A stretch of 42,761 nt of DNA from the NCBI GenBank assembly GCA_014360895.1, contig JACIWQ010000014.1:1-42761 (forward strand), read 5' to 3'. Positions within the stretch are counted from its first letter, which is position 1, and every line of letters starts with the position of its first letter. Both the position numbers and the translations under genes were made by a program. The stretch is from Thermoflexales bacterium. Its GTDB lineage: Bacteria; Chloroflexota; Anaerolineae; B4-G1; DUEL01. Under the pieces are notes generated by a model. It saw only the letters and a program-made list of their open reading frames with translations. It was not told where the DNA came from and ran no database searches. Below, piece by piece: positions 4,102 through 11,513 of this stretch.

Positions 4102-5387
4102 CCCCCAAATGGGCTCTCCGACACCTGAGGCGAGTGCTCTCCCGGGCTGGCCCGGTCATCATTCTGGTGACCCTCATAGGGATGCTGCTGGCTCTCATTG
4201 CCCAGGGAGGCCGGCCCCCGAATACCATCCTCTTCGCCGCCCTGAGCGTCGTCTATGCTATCCCCTGTCTCGTCGCCATCGCGTTGGCGGCCCGAATCGC
4301 GACCTCCTTCGTCAAAACTCTCTACAAGATTCGCACCCACGGAGAAGCTGGGTCGTTTCTCTACCGCCTGCTTTTCGGGGTCTGGAAATTTGGCCCATAC
4401 CTGCTGGTCAAGGAGGGCAAACTGGCGGCCGGGGAGAATTCCGTCCTGCACCGGGTCGGCGGCCCGGGGTACCTGGTCATCTACAACGACTCGGCGGTCG
4501 TCACGGAGCGGTGCGGGCGACTGGAGCGGGTCCTGAGTGCCCATCTTCCCAAACCGAAGAACTACCCCTACCTGGAGCCGTTTGAGAAAATCTGGGAAAT
4601 CGTGGACCTCCGGCCCCAGCAGTGGACGTTCCCGGTCAAGGGGATGACCCGGGATGGCATTCCCGTCATCTGCGAGGCCGACATCCGCTTTAAGATAGAC
4701 GACCGGCCCGCCGACGGCGGTGCGCCGAAACCGCCAACGGATGATGAGCCGTACCCGTTCACCCCTGAAGCGGTCTTCAAAGCCGCGACGGCCCGCTGGA
4801 TCCGGGATCCGGACTTCAAAGGGCCCCCAATGGACTGGCGGGGGCGGGTGGTGGTGGGCTTCACCGAGGGGATTCTGCGCAACATCCTGGCGGAGTACTA
4901 CCTGGACTGGCTGCTGGGCCCCACGGGGGACGAGATTGAACACCCCCGCGAGGTGATCCGTCGCCGCCTGGAAGAACAGTTGCAGCAAGAGGCGCCGAAG
5001 GTCGGGGCGCGGATTCTGAGCGTCCAATTGGGGGAGATCAAAGTGGAGGACGAACAGATCCCCACCCAGTGGATAGAGACCTGGCGGGCCGAATGGGAGA
5101 GCCAAGCCGCAACGACCCGGGTGGAAGGGGAGGCGGAACTCCTGCGGATGGAGGCAGTCCGCGCCCGGGCCCAGGCGGAGATGCTCATCACCCTGATTCG
5201 GGAACTCCAGTCCGTGGCCGTCAGCGATGCCGAACTCCGCCCGTACCTGCTGGCGACGCGCCTGGCGGAGACCCTGCGCCTGATGTCCTACGACCCCTTC
5301 ACCCGCGCCTTCCTGCCCCCCGAGGCCATCCGCACCCTCCACCGGCTCCAGCAACTCCTGGGCGAGGAGCGAATGCTGCCGGAGTGA
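4098..5387 (+). CDS. Membrane protein with SPFH-like domain (2)
   Basis: This 429-residue protein has two N-terminal membrane helices (about residues 17-37 and 42-65), an SPFH-like core (about 110-300, with VDLRPQQWTFPVKGMTRDGI) and a helical Ala/Glu/Arg-rich tail. The ATG at 4098 lies inside the upstream stop (ATGA) and follows GGAGG, so translation is probably coupled. A longer reading frame extends upstream to 3807, but it overlaps the first SPFH gene and has no family features. The LRPQ...FTV/FPVKG and RAEW segments match the upstream paralogue. A hetero-oligomeric membrane scaffold is inferred. Confidence 0.72.
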   Translation: MTPKWALRHLRRVLSRAGPVIILVTLIGMLLALIAQGGRPPNTILFAALSVVYAIPCLVAIALAARIATSFVKTLYKIRTHGEAGSFLYRLLFGVWKFGPYLLVKEGKLAAGENSVLHRVGGPGYLVIYNDSAVVTERCGRLERVLSAHLPKPKNYPYLEPFEKIWEIVDLRPQQWTFPVKGMTRDGIPVICEADIRFKIDDRPADGGAPKPPTDDEPYPFTPEAVFKAATARWIRDPDFKGPPMDWRGRVVVGFTEGILRNILAEYYLDWLLGPTGDEIEHPREVIRRRLEEQLQQEAPKVGARILSVQLGEIKVEDEQIPTQWIETWRAEWESQAATTRVEGEAELLRMEAVRARAQAEMLITLIRELQSVAVSDAELRPYLLATRLAETLRLMSYDPFTRAFLPPEAIRTLHRLQQLLGEERMLPE

Positions 5388-5440
5388 TCGGTGTTGTTGC
5401 GGAAGGTGGTTTTCCAGCCGTTCTCCAGGAAAGGAGCGAG

Positions 5441-6394
5441 ATGACGCGCTGGACTTTATGGGCGATCCCTATCAGCATGCTATATACCGAAAGCGACCGG
5501 GACTTCCCTGCTGTGCGGATGGTCGTTCGGGGATTGGGCCTTCTGAAAGTGGGGGACCTGGCCGGAGCGGAGCGGCTGATGCGGGAAGCCCTGGAGGTTG
5601 CCCGTCGGGGGCACCATTCCGTCGGTGAGGGGATGGCAGCTCTCTGCCTGAGCAACATCTACTGGGGAACCGGGGGGGAAGCAAGTCGCGCTCTGCTGGC
5701 CCGCGAGTTGGCCCAAAGAGCCCGCGACATCTTCGGGCAGCAGGCCGGCCCTGACCAGCGTCACAATGAAGCTGTTGCCACATTCAACCTTGGCCTGGTT
5801 CACCATTTGACGGGCGAACATTATGAAGCCCTCAATGAATATTATAAGGCCCAGAAGTTGCTGGACAGAGCTCGCCGATACTGGATAAGACATAACCGGG
5901 GAGAACAGGCCAGCCAGTGTGATCGGTTAGACGCGTGGATTCAACACCTGGTGGAAAGGTTGATCACATCCGATCCTCAGCAGAGGGACCTCACCCTTTT
6001 CCTCCCTATCGGCGTTGCGGATGGAGTCACAGCTACACTTTGGGGAGAGTATGGTCGGGATACATCCGTGATTTTAGATGGAAAAACCCTGAGGACGGTT
6101 CCTCTGAAAGGCCCGCTGGTCCTGACCGCTGATTGCTGCATTTTCCCCATCCCACCGCAGGTGTGGCAGCAAATCCAGCTGCCATCCGGGCAGACCGGGG
6201 ATTACGCTCTTACCCATCCCGGGAATCCTCTCAAGGATGATTCATTCTACATCTCGTTAAATAACCAGGGCATAACCCAGTTCATCCGACAGCCAGATAA
6301 GACAATCGTCGCCGAAATTCAAGGCGTCAGAGTCATTGGCGGGAAGGGGGAGCAAAACCACCGGAATTACCGCCCGATAGCCCTTTTAATCTGA
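5441..6394 (+). CDS. TPR-like protein with unrecognised C-terminal domain
   Basis: This soluble protein of 317 residues has helical TPR-like repeats in its first half (about residues 25-150, e.g. the GDLAGAERLMREALEVA and GEHYEALNEYYKAQKLL helices). A beta-rich second half (about 175-317) is not one I can assign. It has no signal peptide or membrane segment. ATG 5441 follows AAGGAGCGAG. It is the third gene after the SPFH pair, 53 bases downstream, and probably an adaptor or sensor for that complex. The C-terminal strand pattern around GDYALTHPGNPLKDD loosely recalls an S24/LexA core, but no Ser-Lys dyad is apparent, so I do not assign it. Confidence 0.65.
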   Translation: MTRWTLWAIPISMLYTESDRDFPAVRMVVRGLGLLKVGDLAGAERLMREALEVARRGHHSVGEGMAALCLSNIYWGTGGEASRALLARELAQRARDIFGQQAGPDQRHNEAVATFNLGLVHHLTGEHYEALNEYYKAQKLLDRARRYWIRHNRGEQASQCDRLDAWIQHLVERLITSDPQQRDLTLFLPIGVADGVTATLWGEYGRDTSVILDGKTLRTVPLKGPLVLTADCCIFPIPPQVWQQIQLPSGQTGDYALTHPGNPLKDDSFYISLNNQGITQFIRQPDKTIVAEIQGVRVIGGKGEQNHRNYRPIALLI

Positions 6395-6774
6395 CAGGAG
6401 TTACGCGGTCGAGCGGCGTGAAGGGATTGCTTCGCGGCTCCGCCGCTCGCAATGACCTCACCACGGGTCATTGCGAGGCGCGTAGTGCCGAAGCAGTCTC
6501 CAGGCGAGGGCACCGAACGCCCGGAGGGCCACGCCGAAGGCCACGGCCCGAGAGGCCTCGCCTCGTGGGGCTCGCCCGAGGCGCAACCCCCGGGTGCGTA
6601 AGTCCTGTCTGAGTTTCACGGGCGCAACCCGGATGCATCCGGGATGTTCCGTGTTCATCCGTGTTCCCAAACCGGCAATGGTAGACTTTATCGGAAATAG
6701 CGCCAGGGGCCTCGGCGCCACACCATTTCATAGAAAATCTGCGGCCGTCCGCGTTTATCTGCGTCCTATTTCCG
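6395..6774. other. Gene-free interval made of repeats
   Basis: About 380 bases hold no credible gene. They contain a GCTTCG-type hairpin repeat (6426-6497), a short 'CGTGTTCATCCGTGTTC'-like word near 6650, and a MITE-like element (6684-6782) that runs into prmC. Reading frames on both strands here are short and arginine-rich, as expected of non-coding GC-rich sequence. Confidence 0.7.
6426..6497. repeat. Hairpin repeat with ATTGCTTCG / CGAAGCAGT arms
   Basis: Arms at 6426-6456 and 6467-6497 pair over most of their length, from ATTGCTTCG...CAATGAC to GTCATTGCGAG...GAAGCAGT, around a roughly ten-base loop. I recognise this as a widespread class of bacterial intergenic hairpin. It lies just after the TPR gene and could also stop transcription. 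Confidence 0.7.
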
Positions 6775-6782
6775 ATGAAGTT
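6684..6782 (+). mobile_element. MITE-like element, copy A
   Basis: The 99-base element is bounded by imperfect 17-base terminal inverted repeats: GACTTTATCGGAAATAG (6684-6700) and CTATTTCCGATGAAGTT (6766-6782). A second copy in the opposite orientation lies at 11406-11513. It carries no gene. The right terminal repeat contains the ATG of prmC (6775). No target-site duplication is visible at this copy. Confidence 0.7.
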
Positions 6783-7653
6783 CGTTGATTACGCCACACC
6801 CCCCATCACCCACCGCGAAGCTCAGGAGACCGCCGGTAGCGCACTCCGGGAAGGGGCCGCGCGGCTGGCTCCCGTCACCGAGACGGCCCGGCTGGAGGCG
6901 GAGGTACTGCTGGCCCACGCGACCGGGCTGACCCGGACGGCGCTCCTGGCCCACCCGGAGCGGCCCCTCACCGCCGAAGAGCGGGCCCGCTATCAGGACC
7001 TGCTGGCCCGCCGGAGGGCGGGGGTTCCCCTCCCCTACCTGACCGGGAGGGCGGAATTCTTCGGGCTGGAGTTCGTCCTCACCCCGGAGGTCCTCATCCC
7101 CCGCCCGGAGACGGAGACGCTGGTGGAGCGGGCGCTGGCATGGGACCCCCGAACCGTGGTGGACGTGGGAACCGGGAGCGGGTGTGTGGCGGTCGCCCTG
7201 GCGGTCCAGCTGCCCCGCGCCTGCATCTATGCGACCGACCTCTCCCGCGCCGCGCTGCGCGTTGCGGCGATGAACGCCCGCCGTCACGGCGTGGCGGACC
7301 GTATCCACTTCCTGCAGGCCGACCTGGCCTCCCCCATCCGGGGCCCGGTAGACCTGGTGGTCAGCAATCCGCCCTACGTGGCGGAGGAGGAATGGGCGTC
7401 CCTGCCGGAGTCGGTGCGGGAGCATGAGCCCCGGTTGGCGTTGGACGGCGGGCCGGGAGGGCTGCGGGTGATCCGGCGGCTGCTGGCGGACGCGGCCCGG
7501 TTACTGCGCTCGGGCGGAGCTCTTCTGGTGGAGATGGGTGCCGGCCAGGGCCTCGCAGCCGTGGCCCTGGCCCGCACAACGTTCCCGACAGCGCATATCC
7601 GGATTCACCCCGACCTGGCGGGCCGGGACCGGATACTGGAGGTCATCCTGTGA
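6775..7653 (+). CDS. prmC: Release factor glutamine methyltransferase
   Basis: PrmC/HemK N5-methylates the GGQ glutamine of peptide-chain release factors with S-adenosylmethionine. The 292 residues show the helical N-terminal domain (ALREGAARLAP, then VLLAHATGLTR), the SAM-binding motif VVDVGTGSGCVAVALA near 126, and the catalytic NPPY at 198-201. Length is normal, but about fifteen extra residues precede the usual family start. The only in-frame start is ATG 6775, inside the terminal repeat of the MITE-like element, so the element appears to supply the initiation codon. No good ribosome-binding site is visible. The stop overlaps the tsaC GTG start, so the two are translationally coupled, a pairing common in bacteria. 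Confidence 0.93.
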   Translation: MKFVDYATPPITHREAQETAGSALREGAARLAPVTETARLEAEVLLAHATGLTRTALLAHPERPLTAEERARYQDLLARRRAGVPLPYLTGRAEFFGLEFVLTPEVLIPRPETETLVERALAWDPRTVVDVGTGSGCVAVALAVQLPRACIYATDLSRAALRVAAMNARRHGVADRIHFLQADLASPIRGPVDLVVSNPPYVAEEEWASLPESVREHEPRLALDGGPGGLRVIRRLLADAARLLRSGGALLVEMGAGQGLAAVALARTTFPTAHIRIHPDLAGRDRILEVIL

Positions 7654-8291
7654 GAACCCGGGTGGTTCGGGCAGAAGAGCCTGATGTCATAGAACAGGCC
7701 CTGGCCGTGTGGCAGGCGGGAGGGTTGGTTGTATTCCCCACCGATACCGTGTATGGTCTCTCCGCCCTCCCTGCCTCTACTGAGGCCCTGCGTCGGATGT
7801 GGCGGATCAAGGGCCGGGACAATGGCGCGTTCATCGCCCTGCTCCTGGCCGACCCGGAGGAACTCCCCCGTTTCGCCACCCTGCCGGAAGCTGTCCGGCC
7901 GCTGGCCCAGCACTTCTGGCCCGGCCCCGTGACCCTGATGCTTCCTCGCACGGAGGCCGTACCACCGGAAATCGGAGAGGGGCCCCGGGTGGGCATTCGT
8001 GTGCCGGCCTTGCCGCTGGCCCGGACGCTTATCCGGGCCGCCGGGGGAGCGCTGGCCGTCACCAGCGCCAATCTCCCAGGCCATCCGGCCGCCCGGAACG
8101 CTCAGGAAGTGCTGGCCCAACTGGGTTCCCAAATAGACCTGGTGATTGACGGTGGATGGGTGTCCATCGGGGCCGCTTCTACGGTGGTGGATTGTACCCG
8201 ATGGCCGCCCGTGGTTGTCAGGGAAGGCCCCATTTCCGAGGCAGACATCCGGGGGGTTCTGGGGTTGATCCGTCGGGAGGGCTCGCGGTAA
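7650..8291 (+). CDS. tsaC: L-threonylcarbamoyladenylate synthase (Sua5/YrdC family)
   Basis: This enzyme makes threonylcarbamoyl-AMP from threonine, bicarbonate and ATP for the t6A37 modification of ANN-decoding tRNAs. The 213 residues fit the YrdC-domain-only (TsaC) form, without the extra Sua5 domain. Family signatures are FPTDTVYGL near residue 29, IKGRDNG near 52, HFWPGPVTLMLPR near 90, and the TSANLPG loop near 133. Translation starts at GTG 7650, overlapping the prmC TGA. A strong bidirectional terminator follows. Confidence 0.92.
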   Translation: MRTRVVRAEEPDVIEQALAVWQAGGLVVFPTDTVYGLSALPASTEALRRMWRIKGRDNGAFIALLLADPEELPRFATLPEAVRPLAQHFWPGPVTLMLPRTEAVPPEIGEGPRVGIRVPALPLARTLIRAAGGALAVTSANLPGHPAARNAQEVLAQLGSQIDLVIDGGWVSIGAASTVVDCTRWPPVVVREGPISEADIRGVLGLIRREGSR

Positions 8292-11405: not shown

Positions 11406-11513
11406 AACTTCATCGGAAATAGGACGCGGATGAACGCGGACGAGCGCAGATTTTCATAGAATTTTCATAGAAAGATACGTGCTGCGCCACCTGGCGCTAT
11501 TTCCGATAAAGTC
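11406..11513 (-). mobile_element. MITE-like element, copy B, with target duplication
   Basis: This 108-base copy of the 6.7 kb element is inverted. Terminal repeats are AACTTCATCGGAAATAG (11406-11422) and CTATTTCCGATAAAGTC (11497-11513). TACTA directly flanks both ends (11401-11405 and 11514-11518), consistent with a 5-base target-site duplication. The interior differs by an extra TTTTCATAGA duplication and a changed central segment. It lies between the divergent reductase and larA-type genes. Confidence 0.75.

Follow-up and report, generated by a model that had tools for sequence, protein, structure and literature searches.

The window analysed is a 42,761-nt stretch of a Thermoflexales bacterium contig (JACIWQ010000014.1). 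It carries prmC, the gene for the peptide chain release factor N5-glutamine methyltransferase, downstream of a TPR-protein ORF and upstream of a Sua5/YrdC (L-threonylcarbamoyladenylate synthase) gene, and the 5' end of prmC is occupied by one copy of a MITE family (Table 1). PrmC matches TIGR03534 at 271.9 bits (cut-off 199.1), aligns with PF17827 (PrmC_N) from residue 23, has the motif NPPY at 198-201 and is 78-87% identical to the proteins of five congeners; the gene is intact, and the genome contains no second full-length copy. No Rfam family was found in 6300-7000.

Table 1. Features in and around the 5' end of prmC (window positions).
Feature	Position	Strand	Basis or remark
TPR-protein ORF	5069..6394	+	Upstream of prmC; conserved neighbour; sister homology from about codon 115
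Putative former prmC start with truncated remainder MFRVHPCSQTGNGRLYRK	6644..6700	+	18-codon ORF, ends at TAG 6698 in left repeat
Target-site duplication, left copy GGT	6680..6682	+	2/3 bases match right copy
MITE copy	6683..6783	+	101 bp including terminal A and terminal base; 35-copy family alignment with flanks, ends set by 3-bp duplication
Left terminal inverted repeat GACTTTATCGGAAATAG	6684..6700	+	17/17 to family consensus; holds TAG 6698-6700
Predicted RNA hairpin	6684..6782	+	Terminal-repeat stem contains AUG 6775
Right terminal inverted repeat CTATTTCCGATGAAGTT	6766..6782	+	17/17 to family consensus; holds ATG 6775
prmC (peptide chain release factor N5-glutamine methyltransferase)	6775..7653	+	292 codons from the repeat's ATG
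Codons ATG AAG TTC (M-K-F) from element	6775..6783	+	Direct reading and boundary test
Target-site duplication, right copy GTT	6784..6786	+	
TTG just past element	6785..6787	+	One base off the prmC frame
Sua5/YrdC (L-threonylcarbamoyladenylate synthase) gene	7650..8291	+	Overlaps prmC end; conserved neighbour

The sequence-only reading had placed a MITE-like element at 6684-6782, and both its inverted repeat (15/17 bases complementary between 6684-6700 and 6766-6782, two mismatches) and its repeat family are borne out, with 6683-6783 as the better bounds. All boundary choices and duplication lengths were searched over 35 family copies; the best-supported rule has A as first base, T as last base and a 3-bp target duplication, which is exact in 18 of the 35 copies as against 3.9 in shuffled flanks (z 7.8). 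A TA target duplication of the IS630/Tc1 type was considered and rejected, as the flanks resemble TA but the systematic test favours 3 bp and assigns the A and T to the element as its terminal bases. Independent support for a 3-bp duplication comes from a gntR-family gene (L064:587-700, contig C15 of the source genome, G000), where a copy sits exactly on the start codon with ATG as the duplication: ATG flanks the copy on both sides, the junction reads ATG-AAG-TTT-ATG-GAA in frame, and the empty, uninterrupted site is found in sister genome G001. In length (100-101 bp, in a class of about 50-600 bp), terminal inverted repeats, repetition and target duplication the family has the features of MITEs. 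Being only about 100 bp, the element is too short to encode a transposase of its own, and no autonomous element sharing its terminal repeats was found among the solo terminal repeats and two DDE_3 transposase matches of this draft assembly, a kind that often loses IS copies.

The family numbers about 40-50 copies in the 3.57-Mb draft genome. A 141-bp query spanning the prmC element has 41 matches, and the right repeat alone has 76 at two or fewer mismatches against 0 for a reversed-pattern control; because of these genome-wide matches the inverted repeat at prmC is not a chance palindrome. The 35 two-ended copies that could be aligned give a consensus of 100 bp, and mean identity is 96% for the terminal repeats as against 89% for the interior. 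Among them the prmC copy has the most diverged interior (47/66 to consensus; 81% to the nearest other family copy), and both of its repeats are perfect (34/34). A second family copy lies in the window at 11406-11513 on the minus strand; its AGT duplication is exact, and its interior contains a small repeat, tttcatagaattttcatagaa. In G001 and G003 (L078, L080, L089, L090) there are sister MITE families that share the terminal repeats, CTATTTCCGATGAAGTCT, but have other interiors, and L089 comprises the right half only of such an element, directly after aacaggaggaaaccATG.

Upstream of ATG 6775 the prmC frame is open for 30 codons, free of ATG, GTG and TTG, back to TAG 6682, a stop created at the element's left junction; downstream, the next in-frame ATG, GTG or TTG is codon 116. 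For these three codons over that interval, the earlier statement that PrmC has no in-frame start other than ATG 6775 is correct. Read from there, the protein begins MKF-VDYATPP... (peptide MKFVDYATPPITHR), of which the element contributes the first three residues and residues 4-10 (VDYATPP) are old leader sequence. When the element and one duplication are removed, an open frame into prmC is restored with an ATG at 6644 (MFRVHPCSQTGNVDYATPP...), reading ...VLSEFHGRNPDASG-M-FRVHPCSQTGN(V/G)DYATPPITHREAQETAGSALREGA or, from that start, MFRVHPCSQTGN(V/G)DYATPPITHREAQET.... Sister N-termini in the matching frame are MALSVSIRVHPRSPINCNLSGHSITNGGNEETVGDAL (IRVHPRS) in G002 and ...CIRAIRVHPCPISDIAAALREGA (IRVHPCP) in G001, to be compared with FRVHPCS in the reconstruction, and because of this match ATG 6644 is plausibly the earlier prmC start; against certainty on this point, the leader of G004 reads another frame. 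GTG 6661, a candidate former start when the flanks are joined at 6683/6783, was discarded, since proper removal including one duplication frames ATG 6644 instead. The insertion added 104 bp including the duplication and hence shifted the frame. The proposal that it replaced both the native 5' end and the start of the gene can therefore be kept in part: prmC appears to have been cut from an earlier in-frame start and its sole standard start now lies in the repeat, but the native 5' end is still present at 6644-6682 and the element adds only M-K-F.

Comparing prmC 5' ends with those of relatives, as the sequence-only reading had suggested, brings out the locus without the element. The genus sample comprised seven genomes including the source genome, and the species sample was a single draft metagenome-assembled genome of 262 contigs; the relatives are likewise metagenome-assembled Chloroflexota, labelled Anaerolineae in several cases and Thermoflexus sp. 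in one. The gene order TPR-prmC-sua5 is kept in G001-G004 and its TPR-prmC part also in G006, and the prmC element copy is absent from the syntenic locus in all five of these same-genus relatives. In G004, 48 bp matching 6631-6678 (81% identity, ending 5 bp before the element) run straight into prmC, and in G002 homology with the window picks up again at 6803. Conservation of PrmC with its sisters starts between residue 11 (G002) and residues 15-17 (G004), so translation must begin upstream, and both of these sisters conserve EET-V/I at residues 17-20. The PrmC start of outgroup genera aligns near residue 18, and in several of them prmC follows directly on the apparent end of prfA (prfA read by eye), with an ATG near residue 18. 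Measured against these outgroups, the earlier count of about fifteen extra N-terminal residues is confirmed, the extension amounting to about 17; attributing it to the insertion does not hold, as most of it is older, the N-termini of G002, G004, G001 and G003 also being extended or rebuilt. The G004 leader (L113:3270-3345) has no in-frame ATG and only GTG and TTG starts, none with a Shine-Dalgarno sequence.

The leader into which the new element inserted may have a related history. Aligned with a sister MITE family from G001, the prmC leaders of G001 and G003 match its right part with scores of 69 and 57 (shuffle maxima 32 and 30), that of G002 aligns with repeat units of the G001 sister MITE family at 53 (shuffle maximum 30), and that of G004 more weakly at 36 (shuffle maximum 28). 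These alignments are suggestive: the interrupted leader seems to be itself debris of the same MITE superfamily, a reading limited by the fact that short ATCCGTGTCC-type units are common across the genus. In G001 (L114:1300-1390) and G003 (L115:3870-3960) the PrmC N-termini IRVHPCPISD look as if a MITE end had been translated, GTG codons being the candidate starts. Repeat-like sequence, cattgcgaggcgcgtagtgccgaagcagtctcc, also occurs in the window at 6410-6600, between the TPR gene and prmC.

In a survey of 47 copies or solo ends with an ATG in the right repeat, this ATG is in frame with genes for a DUF2207 protein (L040), an M24 peptidase (L043), a GntR regulator (L064) and a glycosyltransferase (L075). 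The same holds for an ORF of 278 codons that has no Pfam match (L073). All of the other genes in frame with a repeat ATG, at least five, retain another start, and prmC is the sole recognised gene among the copies and ends surveyed that lacks an alternative. The M24 peptidase copy had been a candidate for a second captured start and was rejected, as the sisters share a native GGAGG...TTG start that is retained here.

Taken together, these observations make it probable that insertion of the MITE cut off ATG 6644 and that the ATG of the right repeat now starts PrmC. The MITE family would have expanded in the source species and one of its copies inserted into the prmC 5' end with a 3-bp target duplication. 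ATG 6644 would have been separated from prmC by this event, its frame now running into the left repeat and terminating there at TAG 6698, and the right repeat's ATG-AAG-TT would have landed in frame with the remaining prmC, giving a start at 6775 and the N-terminus MKF-VDYATPP.... Such an N-terminus would have been tolerated because the tail lies outside the folded domain: in the AlphaFold2 model of PrmC (mean pLDDT 87) residues 1-14 fall below 50 and the first helix begins at residue 20, so that the tail is predicted to be disordered. The points against this account include a duplication that matches at only two of three bases at the prmC copy. Judged from sequence, translation most likely begins at ATG 6775; our confidence in this start is moderate because no Shine-Dalgarno sequence was found before it, its AUG is buried in a predicted stem, and a scan of 6380-6900 for sigma-70-like promoters gave none. 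A Shine-Dalgarno sequence is, however, present in only 22% of the long ORFs of this genome when the longest start is taken and in 38% when all starts within 40 codons are allowed, with a background of 14%. The RNA of 6682-6800 has a predicted fold of -39.8 kcal/mol (z -3.4) that places the AUG within the stem formed by the repeats, and for transcripts beginning upstream of the element the predicted pairing probability of the AUG is about 1 (unpaired 0.0). Partial release is predicted if transcription starts at or beyond 6692, or if a ribosome is halted at TAG 6698, the first AUG base then being free at 0.97 and the other two at 0.23 and 0.05.

Burial of the AUG in read-through RNA, together with the missing Shine-Dalgarno sequence, the outgroup PrmC start near residue 18 and the at least five other copies whose ATG is in frame with an ORF that keeps its own start (such as the M24 peptidase with its TTG and GGAGG), would also be expected if the repeat ATG were incidental and PrmC were translated from a non-standard codon, such as ATC 6805, that is closer to the conserved domain. 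We consider this unlikely. Non-standard start codons are rare, every sister with a readable 5' end has coding sequence before residue 18, residues 17-20 are conserved, and ATG, GTG and TTG are wholly absent between codon 1 and codon 116. An error of assembly is less likely again, and very improbable: the genome is a 262-contig metagenome draft, the repeat is about 100 bp long and TTG 6785 is off frame by only one base, so that a misjoined repeat or an indel near the C6 run could have made the frame, but none of the other 34 parsed copies is as distinctive as the one at prmC, which makes confusion of reads unlikely, and both flanks match the syntenic sister locus.

A start at ATG 6775 is compatible with a further proposal, which we hold to be possible although on balance doubtful, namely that the element also carries a promoter, the mRNA beginning inside it with a short leader and a free AUG. 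The partial freeing of the first AUG base predicted for transcripts from 6692 onwards speaks for it, and outward promoters at MITE ends have been reported, for example as predictions in MITEAba12 (PMC6382973). The absence of any promoter from 6380-6900 in the scan for the sigma-70-like type speaks against it. The alternative route to an exposed AUG would be a self-adjusting switch, in which translation of the 18-codon leader stops at UAG 6698 and holds the hairpin open. UAG is read by RF1, and RF1 is methylated by PrmC; were there such a switch, low PrmC would slow RF1 termination at UAG, leave the hairpin open for longer and yield more PrmC. We regard this as a highly speculative idea with very little chance of being correct, and extend the same reserve to the broader one that MITEs of this superfamily have remade the prmC 5' end of the clade time and again.

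If PrmC does start at ATG 6775, a terminal repeat that is conserved for the mobility of the element also provides a core translation gene with its only standard start codon. The locus would then offer a measurable example of start-site turnover, in which the states before and after insertion can be compared through sister species without this copy, and a warning for annotation, as repeat masking would delete the start of an essential-type gene. We found no described case in the open-access literature searched of a terminal repeat acting as sole standard start of a core gene, which is not proof of novelty. Fusions between MITEs and genes are already known from Rickettsia palindromic elements (RPEs), RU elements and Correia elements (PMC2229807, PMC2759123, PMC10969869). 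MITEAba12 of Acinetobacter baumannii is likewise short and non-autonomous; it has inverted repeats and target duplications, and near its ends lie start codons that according to its authors could permit fusion with adjacent coding sequences (PMC6382973); it differs from the prmC element in sequence and target duplication, and its fusions were proposed from the consensus only, whereas prmC is a specific core gene without another standard start. Among the enterobacterial elements RU-1, RU-2 and RU-3 (ERIC, YPAL; PMC2759123), RU-2 forms the N-terminal part of the predicted Y. pestis protein YP_0349, but it supplies a long peptide to a predicted gene, whereas the element described here gives a core gene only its terminal ATG (M-K-F). 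RPEs resemble it as small repeats that lie in frame in conserved protein genes and are tolerated (PMC2229807, PMC10969869); they are read through as an internal peptide, whereas the prmC element breaks the frame, which would resume from the element's far end with three residues gained.
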